Positions 14,143 through 51,181 of a DNA stretch of 64,000 bases are shown here, piece after piece (the stretch's first letter is position 1; each line of letters opens with the position of its first letter). The stretch is from Ktedonobacteria bacterium brp13 (GTDB taxonomy: Bacteria; Chloroflexota; Ktedonobacteria; Ktedonobacterales; Ktedonobacteraceae). The notes beneath the pieces are model-generated. The model ran no database searches, was not told the DNA's origin, and saw only the letters and a list, made by a program, of their open reading frames with translations. The stretch covers positions 3,596,001 to 3,660,000 of the forward strand of contig AP024096.1 of NCBI GenBank assembly GCA_015099395.1, written 5' to 3'. The position numbers and the translations under genes were made by a program.

Positions 14143-15036
14143 ATGGATATTAAGATCAACGGTTTAAATAAGGTTTATCGCGGCGGTGTGCATGCTCTGA
14201 ATGATCTCAGCGTGACGATTCCGACTGGTATGTTTGGTCTGCTGGGGCCCAATGGGGCTGGAAAAACGACGTTGATGCGTACGCTTGCTGGTATTCTACG
14301 GCCCACGAGCGGACAGCTTCAGGTCGGCGAATTTGATGGCACGACGGCGCGGGGACGCGCGGCTATTCAGCAGACGCTCGGCTATCTGCCACAAGAGTTG
14401 GGTATGTATCCCGATCTGAGTGCGCGCGAGTTTCTGGATTACATTGGAATCCTGAAGGGATTGCGCGATCGCCGTGCTCGCCAGGAACGAGCTGATGAGC
14501 TCTTATCGCTGGTGGCGCTGAGTTCTGTCGCTGGTCGGAAGATCAAGACCTATTCGGGCGGTATGAAACGTCGTGTGGGCATTGCGCAGGCTCTGCTGAA
14601 TGATCCTCGCCTGCTCATTGTCGATGAACCGACGGCGGGCCTTGATCCAGAGGAGCGGATTCGTTTCCGTAATCTGCTCTCTGATCTGGCTGGTGAACGT
14701 ACCGTTCTCCTCTCCACCCATATAGTCGAAGATATCGCTCAGACCTGTCGGCGTCTGGCTATCATGAAGAGCGGACGCGTGATCTTTCAGGGGGATCTCT
14801 CTCAGATGTTGGAGGAGACACAGAATAAAGTCTGGCTACTTAATACGGTCGGTCCCAAGCCTGAAGGAGATTTTATTGTCGTCTCCATGCTCAATCTTGG
14901 CAACTCAATGCAATATCGCATTGTAGGTACGCCCCCTAAACAGGCCCAGGCTATCCCAACAGCACCCGGACTCGAGGATGCTTATGTCTGGTTTATGCAC
15001 GAAGAGAAGCCATCAGCCAGAATCGCCACTTATTAA
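14143..15036 (+). CDS. ABC transporter ATP-binding protein
   Basis: A 297-residue nucleotide-binding subunit. Walker A GPNGAGKT is at 35-42, the signature YSGGM at 137-141, Walker B LLIVDEPTAGLDP at 157-169, and the H-loop LLSTHIVED at about 190. The ~70-residue C-terminal extension is typical of the drug/lipopeptide-export group. ATG is preceded by AAGGAG. It lies between two membrane proteins in one operon, so it most likely energises export by both. Confidence 0.93.
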   Translation: MDIKINGLNKVYRGGVHALNDLSVTIPTGMFGLLGPNGAGKTTLMRTLAGILRPTSGQLQVGEFDGTTARGRAAIQQTLGYLPQELGMYPDLSAREFLDYIGILKGLRDRRARQERADELLSLVALSSVAGRKIKTYSGGMKRRVGIAQALLNDPRLLIVDEPTAGLDPEERIRFRNLLSDLAGERTVLLSTHIVEDIAQTCRRLAIMKSGRVIFQGDLSQMLEETQNKVWLLNTVGPKPEGDFIVVSMLNLGNSMQYRIVGTPPKQAQAIPTAPGLEDAYVWFMHEEKPSARIATY

Positions 15037-15088: not shown

Positions 15089-15871
15089 ATGTTCTACCTG
15101 TCTACTCTATTGGGGGCGACAAACTACGAATTTCGGATGCAGGTTCGTCGTCTGGCGCTCTGGCTCACATTTATTCTGCTTGGCATGATCTTTATCATCT
15201 ATCATCAGCCCTGGTTTCGACCCCTCACCTCGCCAGTGAATGACGCTCTGGTCTACTGGGCGGGTGAGATGCAGATGCTGCTCGCTATTGCCGCTGCCAT
15301 TCTACTCGCAGATCGCCTGCCTCGTGAGCGCCGGACCCATGTCGATGAGCTTCATGCCACGTTCTCTAATCCTTTAAGTGCTCGTCTCCTTGGTAAATTT
15401 TTAGGCAGCACGTTGGCTACTCTCTTGCCCATGGTAGTAGTATATGGGGTAGGAGCTGGCTACATCCTTAATCGTTGGCATACTCTCTCCGCCTGGCCTG
15501 TTGCTCTGGCGAGCTTTGCAGCGCTAATTGTGCCTGGGGTGCTGTTTGTTGGTGCGCTTTCGATTGCCTGTACTGCGCTTCTCTGGCTTCCGCTCTATCA
15601 GTTAGCTTTTGTGCTCTACTGGTTCTGGGGCAATCTACTGCCACCAGAAATAGGGATTCCGACCATGAGCAACACGATGTTGACGCCGATTGGTAGCTAC
15701 ACCTGTTCTGGACTTTTTAATCAGGGATCGCGAGAACTGGTCTGTGGTATAGGGCTACACGGTATCACGCCTCTGCAAGGTGTGGAGAGCATTGCCCTGT
15801 TGATTGGAAGTTCGCTGCTGCTCATTCTACTCCTGACAGGTTACCTGCGTTGGAAGCAAGGAAGGCAGTAA
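15089..15871 (+). CDS. ABC-2-type transporter membrane protein
   Basis: A 260-residue membrane protein with six hydrophobic helices, for example LALWLTFILLGMIFIIY (22-38) and the last SIALLIGSSLLLILLLTGYL. The segment RLPRERRTHVDELHATFSNP is a cytoplasmic loop common in permeases of this type. AAAAGGAG precedes the ATG. It is the third gene of the exporter operon, which ends shortly before the omegaRNA-like locus. Confidence 0.8.
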   Translation: MFYLSTLLGATNYEFRMQVRRLALWLTFILLGMIFIIYHQPWFRPLTSPVNDALVYWAGEMQMLLAIAAAILLADRLPRERRTHVDELHATFSNPLSARLLGKFLGSTLATLLPMVVVYGVGAGYILNRWHTLSAWPVALASFAALIVPGVLFVGALSIACTALLWLPLYQLAFVLYWFWGNLLPPEIGIPTMSNTMLTPIGSYTCSGLFNQGSRELVCGIGLHGITPLQGVESIALLIGSSLLLILLLTGYLRWKQGRQ

Positions 15872-15924
15872 TGATAGGTTGTATATAGTAGTAAAATCAC
15901 TTTGTTTCTAAAGGATACGGCTAG

Positions 15925-16201
15925 GTCAGGAACCCTGTCCCCTAAACGGGACGGGCTTGTAGAGATGGGGTGGTTTCTGCCCGTCTTTCTCTGCGAGCTT
16001 ACCTGACCAGTCCCAGCCAGGACTGTTCCTTGCATGCCCCTTGGGGCGGGAAACGGTTATCGGGCTACGATAGCGGCAATGTTCAAGAACGTACCAATGC
16101 GTGCATGCCAGCGCATTGCTCTATAACTTCTGAGTTAACCAGGTCTACGAGGGTTAAGCCAGTGCTCAGGAGACGTGCAGACCGCTATCATCGACGAGGC
16201 A
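15925..16201 (+). ncRNA. Stand-alone IscB-type omegaRNA-like locus, no nuclease gene
   Basis: The segment shares ordered blocks with the RNA region upstream of iscB at 49498-49704: GTCAGGAACCC at the start, ACCTGACCAGTC after the first hairpin, GTACCAA followed by GTGCATGCCAGC and TGCTCTA in the middle, and GACGAGGCA at the end. GTCAGG and CCTGAC can pair in both. The first hairpin differs in sequence but keeps pairing (CTGTCCC/GGGACGG here, CCC/GGG at iscB). There is no iscB or tnpB frame next to it. The presumed 16-nt guide would be the bases just upstream, 15909-15924. Ktedonobacterial genomes are known to carry omegaRNA loci detached from iscB, so a guide acting in trans with the resident IscB is inferred. 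Confidence 0.7.
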
Positions 16202-16368
16202 CACATTACTTTGTGCGGAAAAGGGTGCCAGCCATCTCTGGCATTGAAGGACAGACCGCACTTCTGTTCTTCCTCCGCAAGGGGACGGCTTGAAACATTG
16301 TGCGTCTGCGGACGCCTTTCTTTCCTCCCATAGCCTGAAGGCGTATGGGTCCCCAGAAAGGATTTCTT
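16202..16368. other. Structured leader between omegaRNA-like locus and response regulator
   Basis: Three short hairpins follow the omegaRNA-like block: TGCCAG/CTGGCA near 16229, GCGTCTGCGGACGC near 16302, and CCCATAGCC-TGAA-GGCGTATGGG at 16328-16350. The last ends about 20 bases before the response regulator start. They may be the distal end of the mobile element or a leader of the two-component operon. Confidence 0.4.
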
Positions 16369-17076
16369 ATGGAGACGGTTTTATTGGTTGAGGATGCCCA
16401 TGATCTGGCTCAAGCAATTCTCCAGGAGCTTTCAGCGCATGGGTATCACACGCGACATGCTGCTGATGGGATACAGGCGCTAGAGTTTCATGCTCAAGAG
16501 CCGCCAGCACTGGTGATTCTGGATTGGATGCTTCCTCGCTTAGATGGTCTGGAGGTGTTGCGCCGCTTGCGACAGAGCTCGGCAACGCCTGTCTTAATGC
16601 TCACGGCACGGAGCGAGGAGATCGACCGTGTGCTTGGTCTGGAGCTGGGAGCTGATGATTATCTCACCAAGCCGTTTAGTATGCGCGAGCTAGTGATACG
16701 CGTGCATGCCCTCTTGCGACGAGCTGAGCGGATGCGACAGATTATGCAGGCCGATCAAGTCGGAGCGGAGAAACCTCTCTACTACGCTTCATTGAGACTC
16801 GAACCATTTACTCATCAGGCCTATCTCGATAATGAGCTCTTAGATCTGGGCGCAACTGAGTTCTCACTGCTTCACTTGTTGCTGCGCAGTCCTGGTCGAG
16901 CCTTTCATCGCTCGTATCTATTAGATACTGTCTGGGGTCAGACCTTTGAAGGGACCGATCGCTCAGTCGATACAGCCGTCCTACGCCTACGTAGAAAACT
17001 AGGGTCGCTGGGTGAAGCGATCGAGATGGTCTGGGGGATTGGTTACCGTCTGCGTTCAGAAAGGAAAGAAGAATGA
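16369..17076 (+). CDS. OmpR/PhoB-family response regulator
   Basis: A 235-residue two-domain regulator. In the receiver, E8/D9, the phosphoacceptor D52 (VILDWMLPRLDG), T79 and K101 (TKPFS) are in place. The C-terminal winged helix (about 140-230) ends AVLRLRRKLG-SLGEAIEMVWGIGYRL, the classical wing. The start follows AGAAAGG; an earlier in-frame ATG lies inside the hairpin. It overlaps the kinase gene by 4 bases (ATGA), so the two are translationally coupled. Exporter genes just upstream suggest that it controls them. Confidence 0.95.
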   Translation: METVLLVEDAHDLAQAILQELSAHGYHTRHAADGIQALEFHAQEPPALVILDWMLPRLDGLEVLRRLRQSSATPVLMLTARSEEIDRVLGLELGADDYLTKPFSMRELVIRVHALLRRAERMRQIMQADQVGAEKPLYYASLRLEPFTHQAYLDNELLDLGATEFSLLHLLLRSPGRAFHRSYLLDTVWGQTFEGTDRSVDTAVLRLRRKLGSLGEAIEMVWGIGYRLRSERKEE

Positions 17077-18686
17077 GACCTTATTCGCAATCTCTTCTAG
17101 CTGCAGCTGGACTAAGACGATCATTGCTTGAATTTCTCCTGGTAGGAATAGTGCTCTGGTCCGGTATGTTATGGCTAAATCTCTCACAGCCACCATCTTT
17201 CTTACGTACTTTTATGATGCTCTTAGTCGGTCCTTGCTGTCTACTCTGGTTAGGCTTGCGGCTACGCGTCTCTTCACATACCTGGTGGAAACAAGGGCTC
17301 ATAGAAATCCTGGTGGGTGGATCAGGCTGTCTCCTCTTAGGTGGAAGCCTCCTGGCGCTCAACCTCCTGCCCAATGGGGGATTAGCTCCAGTATTACATT
17401 GGAAGCATACGGCTGGTGAAGCACTAGGAAGCGCTGTAGAGCTGAATATATTGGCGTTCGTTGGAGCACGAATTGGGGTGCGCTTCTGGGTCCCATGGGA
17501 TCATCTACGCCGTCGCCGATTACTCTTGAGCTTTGCTCACCTGCAGATTACACTGGTCGCTCTGCTGGGCGGGCTTCTGCTTCTAGCAACGATGTTTATG
17601 CTATTCTGGAAGTTGGCCAATAGCCCCAATACAACTTCTAATAATCCCGATACTATTTTTTATATTATTGAGGTTGCACTGTTTATCTTTGGTGTGATTA
17701 TCGTTTCGCTGCCGCTCTCCTTCCTTTTCTCGTATCTGATGGTCAGACAGACAACCCCACGGCTCAAAGCGTTGGCCGAAGCGACGGGAGCTGTCCGTGT
17801 TGGAAATTACGCTTTGCGCATTCCCGTTAATGGTGAGGATGAGATTGCGCAATTGCAGACCGACTTTAATGTGATGGCTGGCGACCTGGAGCACACTATG
17901 CAGGAGTTGGCTCAGACGCTCGCAGCTTTAGGGAGTGAGCGCGATACGGTGACACATCTATTACAGGAGCGCCGCCAGTTGATTGCCTCTGTTTCGCATG
18001 AGCTTCGTACCCCCCTGGCCACACTGCGTAGCTATCTAGAGATTACGCTTTCGCGTTGGAACGAACAGCCTGCTCCTACGCTACAACGCAATCTAGCAGT
18101 GATGGAGAGGGAGGTTCTGCATCTTCAGTCTCTGGTTGATGATCTCTTCTCACTGGCTCGCTCTGAGGTTGGTCGTTTGACTGTCCAGTCCAGGCCTATA
18201 GAGCTTGGAGCATTGCTGGAGAGTCTGGTAGAAGCGCGAGCCCCTCTGGTCCTCCGCACACATAAGATCAAGCTCCTCCTTGATCTACCTTCAGAGCTGC
18301 CAGCCATTCAAGGAGATGCTCAGCGTCTGGAGCAGATTTTTCAGAATCTCCTACACAACGCCTTGCGCCACACTCCCCCAGGCGGCATCATTGCCCTTGT
18401 GGGCTGTATTGAAAATGAACAAGTCAAGATACAGGTGAAGGATACGGGAGAAGGGATCGCTCCACAGGACCTTGCCTCCGTCTGGGAACGCTTCTATCAA
18501 GCAGAACAGAGCACTGGACGCAAGGGTGGGGCAGGGCTTGGGCTCTCACTGGTTAAAGAATGGATTGAGGCCATGGAGGGAATGATCCAGGTCGAGAGTA
18601 CCGTAGGAGAAGGCAGCTGCTTCACTATGTATCTTCCTCTGGCAAGTGCTCAGACCCCTTCGTATTCTAACCCTTTCACAAACTAG
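17073..18686 (+). CDS. Sensor histidine kinase
   Basis: A 537-residue membrane kinase. Six or so hydrophobic segments lie between residues 18 and 222, unusually many for this class. A HAMP linker follows (223-276, RLKALAEATGAVRVGNYALR). The H-box SHELRTPLATLRS has the phosphorylated H309. The N-box QIFQNLLHNALRHTP, G1 DTGEGI and G2 GGAGLGLSLV are intact. It pairs with the response regulator through a 4-base overlap. The lack of a large outer loop suggests sensing within the membrane, as in systems that detect cell-envelope peptides through a neighbouring ABC transporter; that part is inference. Confidence 0.94.
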   Translation: MRPYSQSLLAAAGLRRSLLEFLLVGIVLWSGMLWLNLSQPPSFLRTFMMLLVGPCCLLWLGLRLRVSSHTWWKQGLIEILVGGSGCLLLGGSLLALNLLPNGGLAPVLHWKHTAGEALGSAVELNILAFVGARIGVRFWVPWDHLRRRRLLLSFAHLQITLVALLGGLLLLATMFMLFWKLANSPNTTSNNPDTIFYIIEVALFIFGVIIVSLPLSFLFSYLMVRQTTPRLKALAEATGAVRVGNYALRIPVNGEDEIAQLQTDFNVMAGDLEHTMQELAQTLAALGSERDTVTHLLQERRQLIASVSHELRTPLATLRSYLEITLSRWNEQPAPTLQRNLAVMEREVLHLQSLVDDLFSLARSEVGRLTVQSRPIELGALLESLVEARAPLVLRTHKIKLLLDLPSELPAIQGDAQRLEQIFQNLLHNALRHTPPGGIIALVGCIENEQVKIQVKDTGEGIAPQDLASVWERFYQAEQSTGRKGGAGLGLSLVKEWIEAMEGMIQVESTVGEGSCFTMYLPLASAQTPSYSNPFTN

Positions 18687-49497: not shown

Positions 49498-49733
49498 GTC
49501 AGGAACCCCACGGATAAATCCGGGGGCTTGCGCAAGTAAGTCCACACCTGACCAGTCTTAGCACTAGCGATAGTGCTCCCTTCGGGAAGAAATAGGTACC
49601 AACGGGTGCATGCCAGCCCGCTGCTCTACGGTCCCACATTAAACAGGGCTACAGGGTTAACCCAGTGTGTTGGACGATAAACCCTCCCGAAGATTGACGA
49701 GGCAAACAACACCCTAGCAATAGGAGGCTCAAC
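49498..49733 (+). ncRNA. IscB omegaRNA
   Basis: The region directly upstream of iscB is structured: GTCAGG (49498-49503) can pair with CCTGAC (49554-49559) around a CCC/GGG hairpin, followed by GCACTAGCGATAGTGC (16-base hairpin) and CCCTTCGGG. GTGCATGCCAGC and GACGAGGCA blocks recur in the locus at 15.9 kb. In IscB systems this RNA guides the nuclease, with the guide at its 5' end; here it would be 49482-49497. The 3' end probably reaches the ribosome binding site AGGAGG. Confidence 0.8.
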
Positions 49734-51008
49734 TTGAGCAATGTATTCGTGATCGACAGTTTTTGTAAGCCGTTAAACCCGGTGCATCCGGCCCGCGCAC
49801 GTCTGCTCTTGAAACAGGGCAAAGCGTCCGTGTACCGCATGTATCCATTCACCATCGTCTTAAAGCGAGTGGTCGAGCAGCCTGAAGTCAAGCCGCTACG
49901 GGTCAAGCTTGATCCCGGCTCGAAGACCACTGGCATTGCGGTCGTCAATGATGCAACAGGCGAAGTCGTTTTTGCCGCAGAACTCACGCATCGTGGACAG
50001 GCGATCAAGTCGGCCCTCGATGATCGTCGGGGGGTACGCAGAGGACGCAGACAGCGAAAAACACGCTACCGAAAGCCACGCTGGTCCAACCGGAAGAACA
50101 GAAAGAAGGGTTGGCTACCACCCTCGTTAGAAAGTAGGATCGACAACATTCTGACATGGGTACTGCGTCTTGCTCGCTATTGTCCAATCACCGCGATGAG
50201 CATGGAACTCGTCAAGTTCGATCTTCAGCAGATGGAGCACCCGGAAATATCAGGAGTGGAATATCAACAAGGGACGCTCGCAAGCTATGAAATCCGCGAG
50301 TACCTGCTCGAAAAGTGGGAACGACAATGCTCCTACTGCGGAGCCAAAGATATTCCTTTACAGGTAGAGCACATTGTACCGCGTGCCAAAGGTGGGACGA
50401 ATCGCATCAGCAATTTGGCTCTGGCCTGTGAGAAGTGCAATATCGCCAAAGGCACGCAGGACATCAAGGATTTTCTGAAAAAGAAACCCGAGGTGCTCAA
50501 GCGCATCCAGGCCCAGGCTAAGCAGCCGCTCAGGGATGCAGCAGCCGTGAATGTGACACGCTGGGCACTCTTTGAACGCTTACAAGTCACGGGATTGCCG
50601 GTTGAATGCGGTTCGGGCGGGCTGACGAAGTTCAACAGAACGACGCGCAAGATGCCCAAGACCCACTGGTGCGATGCTGCGAATGTAGGGAAGAGTACAC
50701 CGCTCCTACTCTCAGTGCGGGGAGTGGTTCCATTGTTGGTGAAGGCGACTGGTCACGGACGACGAAAAATGTGCGTCACGGATGCCTACGGGTTCCCGAA
50801 ACAGCACAAAGAGCGCAAAGGATCATTTCTGGGGTATCGCACAGGCGACGTGGTAAAAGCCGTCACTCCGAAGAGAATCTCCCAGGGACGCATTGCAATT
50901 CGTCATCGCCCAAGTTTTCGTCTTGGAAAGTTTGATATTCACCCCAAGTATATGCGCCGTTTGCACAGGGCGGACGGTTATGAATACACACAAGAAAGGA
51001 GTGCGTGA
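49734..51008 (+). CDS. iscB: IscB RNA-guided nuclease
   Basis: A 424-residue IscB, the compact ancestor-type relative of Cas9, carried on an IS200/IS605-like transposon. The N-terminal PLMP domain reads CKPLNPVHPARARLLLKQGK. RuvC-I has D60 (VKLDPGSKTTGIAVV), the Arg-rich bridge helix is 98-124, RuvC-II has E158 (MSMELVKFD). An intact HNH domain follows: C199/C202, E212-H213 (VEHIVPRAKGGTN), N227, C232/C235. RuvC-III has H311 and D314 (HWCDAANVGK). All catalytic residues are kept, so it should be active. TTG start with AGGAGG 8 bases ahead. No transposase gene tnpA is adjacent. Confidence 0.95.
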   Translation: MSNVFVIDSFCKPLNPVHPARARLLLKQGKASVYRMYPFTIVLKRVVEQPEVKPLRVKLDPGSKTTGIAVVNDATGEVVFAAELTHRGQAIKSALDDRRGVRRGRRQRKTRYRKPRWSNRKNRKKGWLPPSLESRIDNILTWVLRLARYCPITAMSMELVKFDLQQMEHPEISGVEYQQGTLASYEIREYLLEKWERQCSYCGAKDIPLQVEHIVPRAKGGTNRISNLALACEKCNIAKGTQDIKDFLKKKPEVLKRIQAQAKQPLRDAAAVNVTRWALFERLQVTGLPVECGSGGLTKFNRTTRKMPKTHWCDAANVGKSTPLLLSVRGVVPLLVKATGHGRRKMCVTDAYGFPKQHKERKGSFLGYRTGDVVKAVTPKRISQGRIAIRHRPSFRLGKFDIHPKYMRRLHRADGYEYTQERSA

Positions 51009-51050
51009 TGCTCCTCCCCATAGGTGAACCAAGGGGTACCCGCATCACGC
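51003..51050 (+). terminator. Hairpin at the end of the IscB element
   Basis: GCGTGATGC (51003-51011) pairs with GCATCACGC (51042-51050), with CCCC/GGGG inside, then GATTTTTAAA. It overlaps the iscB stop and likely both ends transcription and forms the right-end structure of the element. Confidence 0.65.
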
Positions 51051-51181
51051 GATTTTTAAAGATGGAGATGGGGATCGGTAATTGATGGAGGATGGACAGC
51101 CCAGTAACACTCGCGCTGTTGACAGAAGGAACACAACCCTGGCTACGCAGGTCTGTGCTCCCTCTTCTAGCATGCTAACCC

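Follow-up and report, generated by a model that had tools for sequence, protein, structure and literature searches.

Solo omegaRNA elements at start codons in a Ktedonobacteria genome: a candidate mobile satellite of IscB

The stretch of DNA analysed here (the window, 64,000 nucleotides from the 8.88-Mb genome of Ktedonobacteria bacterium brp13) contains just two Rfam matches above the gathering cut-off, both to the HEARO/omegaRNA model RF02033 (cmscan, cut-off 83). One of them, scoring 132.4 bits, belongs to an intact iscB element, and the other, scoring 95.5 bits (E 2.8e-18), lies between ABC transporter genes and a response regulator–histidine kinase pair (Table 1). A preliminary description of this DNA had proposed a stand-alone omegaRNA-like locus without a nuclease gene at 15909-16201, and the covariance model supports this proposal, the score being above the cut-off with no IscB match at the locus. 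A genome-wide HEARO search began the alignment of this locus at position 15983 and gave it 69.5 bits, below the cut-off of 83; the score thus varies with the alignment of a long variable arm, and the full cmscan alignment was taken as the better one. The five ordered sequence blocks said to be common to this region and the RNA of the intact iscB were all found at both places (15925, 16001, 16101, 16117 and 16193; 49498, 49546, 49606, 49622 and 49696). On the + strand of the window four of the five are confined to these two loci, and the remaining one, TGCTCTA, occurs 12 times. In agreement with the same description, the first hairpin differs in sequence between the 15925 and 49498 loci, yet pairs in both. 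A decayed iscB at the locus, which that description had considered, was rejected: no IscB-like frame overlaps 15925-16209, and none of the 17 genome matches to the window's IscB falls there, all of them lying elsewhere.

The extent first given for the locus had to be revised, as the scaffold starts at 15925, the repeated unit defined below reaches 16368, and 15909-15924 is host flank, inside which sits the host's own SD-like AAAGGA. A guide length of 16 nt is given in the available text of PMC9640706. On the other side of the element, translation from 16369 gives a protein in which the receiver domain PF00072 starts at residue 4. This domain match favours 16369 as the start of the response regulator over 16345, an in-frame ATG within the element's right end at which an ORF finder begins the gene, 8 codons early.

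Table 1. Coordinates of the features discussed in the text (positions of the window).
Feature	Position	Strand	Remarks
ABC transporter ATPase	14143-15036		upstream of the element
Membrane protein	15089-15871		upstream of the element; ABC2_membrane_3 match, below curated cut-off only
Guide region, last 16 bases of host leader before the element	15909-15924	+	left flanks differ in 19/19 copies
OmegaRNA (HEARO) scaffold	15925-16209	+	RF02033, 95.5 bits; covariation among 22 solo omegaRNAs
Non-autonomous mobile element, 444 bp	15925-16368	+	one of 19 full-length copies
Right-end structure	16315-16361	+	DNA fold of 16290-16372
SD-like AGAAAGGA	16355-16362	+	6 bases upstream of the start codon; also forms one side of the outer stem
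ATGG, right-flank motif (presumed target and TAM) = response regulator start codon	16369-16372	+	19/19 right flanks
Response regulator gene, host gene of the window insertion	16369-17076	+	PF00072 and PF00486
Histidine kinase	17073-18686		downstream of the response regulator
OmegaRNA of the intact iscB element	49498-49712	+	RF02033, 132.4 bits
iscB element, right junction AAAG/ATGG, possible source of IscB in trans	49498-51061	+	L002, L009 and L010 compared
iscB gene, 424 aa, TTG start	49734-51008	+	PF14239 RRXRR and PF01844 HNH; PDB IscB chains

A DNA search of the genome with positions 15925-16372 as the query (448 positions) returned 31 matches, 19 of which span all 448 positions: five at 100% identity (the window copy included), nine at 99% and five at 91-94%. 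The left flanks are distinct in all 19 copies and ATGG opens the right flank in 19 out of 19, and therefore the element proper corresponds to 15925-16368. Since it is present in multiple copies, its guide is simply the flank at the insertion point. The preliminary description had thus correctly seen a guide region left of the scaffold and the lack of a nuclease gene, but this guide is host sequence belonging to the insertion site, and what had seemed an isolated, detached locus is one of 19 full-length copies of a mobile element. A sister solo type of about 440 bp, represented by L006, L008, L011 and L012, ends before ATGA or GTGG, and three of its members (L006, L008 and L012) are 77-78% identical to the window element over its right part. 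The founding paper on HEARO reportedly describes integration at ATGA or GTGA. Altogether the genome holds 35 HEARO matches, namely the 19 copies, the four of the sister type, L007 (GTGAACT type, with no IscB match in its 1.5-kb flanks), eight beside an iscB match and three (L062, L064 and L065) that belong to iscB elements with an intron-split omegaRNA; in 24 of the 35 no nuclease gene adjoins. No match to the element was obtained in plasmid and phage collections, which may lack entries for this genome or for ones very close to it. By eye, we also noted a right-half fragment of the element (L066, G000:C1 ~1.263 Mb) and a 118-bp internally deleted copy (L069, ~5.112 Mb), each directly before an ATGA that apparently opens a gene.

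At the right end of the element, CCTTTCT (16315-16321) and AGAAAGG (16355-16361) form an outer stem, which encloses an inner hairpin at 16327-16349 and is followed by a short linker and then ATGG; this stem appears in the minimum-energy DNA fold and is absent from the centroid. The left end also has a subterminal hairpin, located within the scaffold, and the right-end layout of iscB-bearing elements is alike. Several copies with identical ends and unrelated flanks, a fixed short motif and subterminal hairpins are all features by which IS200/IS605 elements are recognised. Insertion is seamless, with no target duplication: this is base-exact in 7 of 11 iscB-bearing relatives, and for the solo type it is seen as protein-level vacant sites with diverged leaders. 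PATEs are non-autonomous IS200/IS605 derivatives, and the window element resembles them in its subterminal hairpins, the short motif at one junction, the lack of a transposase gene and the seamless insertion found in relatives; unlike them, it holds a full, constrained guide-RNA scaffold.

The scaffold constraint emerges from an alignment of 22 solo omegaRNAs, comprising 11 of the 19 copies, three of the four sister copies and eight sequences from G002, G003 and G012. The consensus contains 58 pairs, with both-sided changes in 30 of them and compensatory changes in all 11 scaffold helices. Pairing was found in 98.3% of the cells, compared to 33.7-42.9% in a slid control, and the covariation score was reached by 0 of 500 shuffles, in a setting where the alignment tested had also served to predict the consensus structure and the kinship of rows inflates such scores. 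The single-sequence fold of the scaffold surpassed shuffles only to a moderate degree (z -2.25, with 6 of 200 equally good). Judging from these aligned sequences, the solo omegaRNA fold is kept through compensatory change, which bears out the structural constraint postulated at the outset. In the stretches fetched around the G002 and G003 solo loci no IscB match was present, and in G012 there is no room for iscB, because a right-end match lies less than 100 bases past the scaffold. In a tree of 40 omegaRNAs, 13 solo rows form one group (95/93; 94% of bootstraps), which covers sequences of the own genome, G002, G003 and G012 and whose nearest neighbours are iscB-linked omegaRNAs of G025/G023, not those of the own genome's iscB genes. 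As the group spans several genomes and its neighbours lie in G025/G023, the solo state looks old.

These data bear on the possibility that the element is a plain non-autonomous IS200/IS605-like transposon, in which the omegaRNA part is a transposase-recognised end or a relic and IscB is no longer involved. Such a transposon would account for the absent nuclease gene, the hairpin ends and the near-identical copies, which indicate recent spread, and according to the available text of PMC9581776 the first stem-loop may serve mobility. However, the compensatory changes extend to all 11 helices, beyond the end hairpins, and the solo lineage has kept its fold in several genomes, so that we regard this explanation as unlikely.

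An intact IscB is encoded in the same genome, by an element that likewise has ATGG on its right flank; specifically, the window's iscB element and two near-identical copies share the AAAG/ATGG right junction, and L003 and L005 have ATGA. IscB-type genes number eight uninterrupted and three split. By hand count, 14 of 17 elements with a 5' GTGAACT, from four genomes, have a TATAAA right end, which is absent in L215, L219 and L224. These TATAAA ends agree with the NTAAA TAM of OrufIscB (PMC13180657, available text), and the nickase DtIsrB is described in the available text of PMC9581776 as accepting NTGA and refusing ATGG, its Q326R form accepting ATGG too. The view of the right-flank motif as the TAM fits with these three specificities.

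Several iscB elements of this genome are themselves interrupted. In L276 (G000:C1 ~2.12 Mb), L277 (4.38 Mb) and L278 (6.56 Mb), an intron identified as group II by Rfam splits the omegaRNA and carries an RT/maturase/HNH gene, which in L276 matches PF00078, PF13655, PF08388 and PF01844. Another group-II-type intron, distinct from the first, interrupts iscB around codon 280 in L275 (G000:C1 ~2.98 Mb), L277 and L278, both introns being present in the latter two; its RNA scores 38.8 against an Rfam cut-off of 40, and its gene has RT, maturase and HNH domains. In addition, an insert whose ends are inverted interrupts the first omegaRNA hairpin of L009 and L010 (G000:C1 5.52 and 2.69 Mb), at an identical point in the two; the L009 insert is short, that of L010 ~1.4 kb long.

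For 12 of the 19 copies, the right-flank ATG reads, in our judgement, as the start codon of a host gene (L014, L015, L018, L021, L024, L026, L027, which is the window copy, L028, L029, L030, L061 and L063), an assignment made from frames and orthologues in which the native start of L021 possibly lies one codon upstream. At these sites the element parts the gene from its own leader. The other seven copies are L016, L017, L019, L020, L022, L023 and L025, the last apparently inside a histidine kinase gene. In tests that take sites as independent and draw their background from the 64-kb window, 14 of the 19 copies have a frame of 60 aa or more after the junction, versus 26% of the 542 ATGG sites of the window (P 1.9e-5), with L022 and L025 passing this test though outside the judged list. 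A stricter start-like test gave 10/19 versus 10.7% (P 7e-6) and, at 80 aa, 7/19 versus 7.2% (P 2e-4). With the background limited to those ATGG sites at which no predicted frame is disrupted, possible starts numbered 22 of 113, and the 12 of 19 copies correspond to P 3.8e-5. This bias could reflect an insertion preference, of the transposase or for accessible single strand, instead of better maintenance of transcribed copies. The motif itself is ATG plus G, and solo and iscB-bearing elements are placed similarly; nevertheless, the seven ATGG insertions elsewhere argue that a start codon is not required. We keep such a preference as a tentative option, which covers one step and is compatible with the satellite explanation presented below.

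Vacant sites were sought with the N-termini of nine host genes in four congeners (G001-G004), and the 60 upstream bases were viewed for eight of the nine. Alignments from residue 1 were found in 3/4 loci for L014 and L026, in 4/4 for L029, L024 and L061, in 2/2 fetched for L018, in 1/4 for L063 and in 0/4 for L028, none of whose orthologues aligns before residue 3. The orthologues found for L015 were weak (39-45%). In the congener rows aligned from residue 1, the leader reaches the start codon uninterrupted, with no element, and the congener leaders of L024 and L029 show the same SD motif as the left flank in the own genome. For the window locus no vacant site was obtained in G001-G004, where matches to the regulator and kinase genes were short or weak, and the neighbouring membrane protein had no match in named genomes. 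The best 80 of 590 relatives of the response regulator in named genomes included that of Thermogemmatispora tikiterensis (68%), and the element is absent from the 100 bases upstream of the latter.

A closer view was offered by the iscB-bearing elements of G025/G023, 13 of which, out of 24, are followed by a frame open to the stretch end (~85 codons); the 13 count both L181 and L207, one shared insertion, and the 24 include L208, without RTGR at its end. L181 and L207 are the same iscB element at the same site, with both flanks in common, in G025 and G023. The vacant-site search covered 11 of the 13, and a base-exact vacant site was present in a sister genome for seven (L174, L176, L179, L180, L182, L183 and L206): joining the flanks, 0 bases are gained or lost at the junction, with identity up to 97% over 300 bp. 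L182 and L209 match diverged relatives too (68% and 72%), in which ATGG is not kept; the match of L178 begins just 10 bases before the junction, and for L169 and L172 an orthologous match was not found. In L179, L180, L182 and L183 the 16 bases preceding ATGG are identical in the vacant allele, and therefore the guide fits that allele. From their sequence, the genes at L179, L183 and L176 are presumably gyrase/topoisomerase-A-like, glutamine-synthetase-like and HIT-family, respectively.

An SD tetramer occurs in the last left-flank bases of 25/54 RTGR-type versus 6/33 TATAAA-type elements (Fisher P 0.007), the 54 including L208, the L181/L207 pair and four 440-bp elements that score 0; its frequency at window positions is 12.7%. 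In addition, sense promoter-like sites outnumber antisense ones in the 19 left flanks (score of at least 9: 11 versus 4; Wilcoxon P 0.006). The best promoter-like site of the window copy scores 8 of 12, and a promoter scan of 15700-16500 found 0 promoter-like sites; as this site is weak and the scan empty, the window guide may need read-through from the ABC genes. The element has two weak terminator-like hairpins (shuffle mean 0.6), which argue that the regulator is not easily reached by read-through.

The right end invites another explanation, namely that the host co-opted the element as a 5' leader controlling the response regulator, for instance with the SD-like motif held in a stem. AGAAAGGA can indeed pair with CCTTTCT, and it is intact or SD-like in 12/12 start-codon copies, with GG lost in 2 of the other 7, a difference that is not significant and due to one change shared by both copies. 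Against co-option, the same sequence precedes unrelated genes, and iscB-bearing relatives without an SD-like end also lie at start codons; we consider it improbable. The motif may help the host gene, but no weight is put on this, because it is half of the outer stem and relatives without it are placed alike. SD replacement as the cause of start-codon placement is weakened by the same iscB-bearing relatives.

The suggestion that the locus may have been retained to regulate or target a particular site found no support. Searched with a 19-base pattern that joins the guide end to ATGG, the genome yields no further site at up to 2 mismatches; at 3 mismatches there are three matches, one of which is the locus itself, none better, and a reversed control also gave three. 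The expected target of the guide is the vacant insertion site itself.

In conclusion, we favour, with moderate confidence, the explanation that the window locus is a non-autonomous, IS200/IS605-like satellite in which an omegaRNA is the one recognised cargo, which a transposase moves, which IscB maintains in trans and whose guide is transcribed together with the host leader. What supports it in the sequence are the copies, the fixed ends, the ATGG junction, the compensatory fold, the leader/start-codon placement and the uninterrupted leaders of relatives; the mobility machinery, the maintenance in trans and the expression are deduced, transposase movement and IscB maintenance on the ground of established IS200/IS605 and OMEGA biology. 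By analogy, a Y1 transposase would excise the element and insert it seamlessly, and IscB made elsewhere in the genome would bind the transcribed omegaRNA, with the host leader just upstream as the guide. IscB would then cut vacant sites, in which the guide match is followed by ATGG, and repair would restore the element; the occupied site would be spared, the guide match there running into GTCA instead of ATGG. Placed within a 5' leader, the guide and the scaffold could be transcribed together with the host gene, and copies in transcribed leaders would be best maintained, leading to the start-codon bias. Standalone omegaRNAs can function with IscB (PMC9581776, available text), and guiding of IscB in trans by the window omegaRNA is possible and the reading we place first. 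The pairing with the local IscB is uncertain, because the nearest iscB-linked omegaRNAs lie in G025 and G023. Counted against the satellite explanation are the 7 of 19 copies away from start codons; moreover, the genome has three Y1_Tnp matches, one of them intact and next to a tnpB-like frame, but none of these three loci matches the element, and a transposase whose ends correspond was not found.

With respect to known systems, the window RNA is like the IscB omegaRNA/HEARO (RF02033) in its score over the cut-off, the guide 5' of the scaffold and the right-flank motif, but it has no adjoining iscB and belongs to its own lineage among the 40 omegaRNAs; it is a solo variant of the usual placement, in which HEARO and a downstream iscB share one element. 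Standalone omegaRNAs are already known, those of Ktedonobacter having reportedly been described by Altae-Tran in 2021. The present locus resembles these in having no nuclease gene and possibly acting with IscB in trans, and differs in its multiple copies, defined ends, fixed right-flank motif and start-codon placement, although it may partly have been described already. Standalone omegaRNAs of Ktedonobacter are also cited in the available text of PMC9581776. Neither a mobile solo lineage nor start-codon placement was found in the literature searched, which included the available parts of PMC9755519, PMC9581776, PMC9640706 and PMC13180657, with the founding HEARO/ISC/OMEGA papers outside its scope.

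As to the biological meaning, the standalone omegaRNA becomes a testable genetic satellite, and the vacant sister-genome alleles (guide plus ATGG) are natural guide-target pairs for testing a role of IscB in homing or retention. More speculatively, the element might represent an RNA-only selfish satellite of IscB, a nuclease-less lineage of its own that sits at start codons, has its guides made by host promoters, can give a gene a new ribosome-binding leader and spreads at low cost. Start-codon placement would account for the making of a promoterless guide RNA and, if IscB elements generally settle at start codons, the ATGA/ATGG motifs would acquire a biological meaning.
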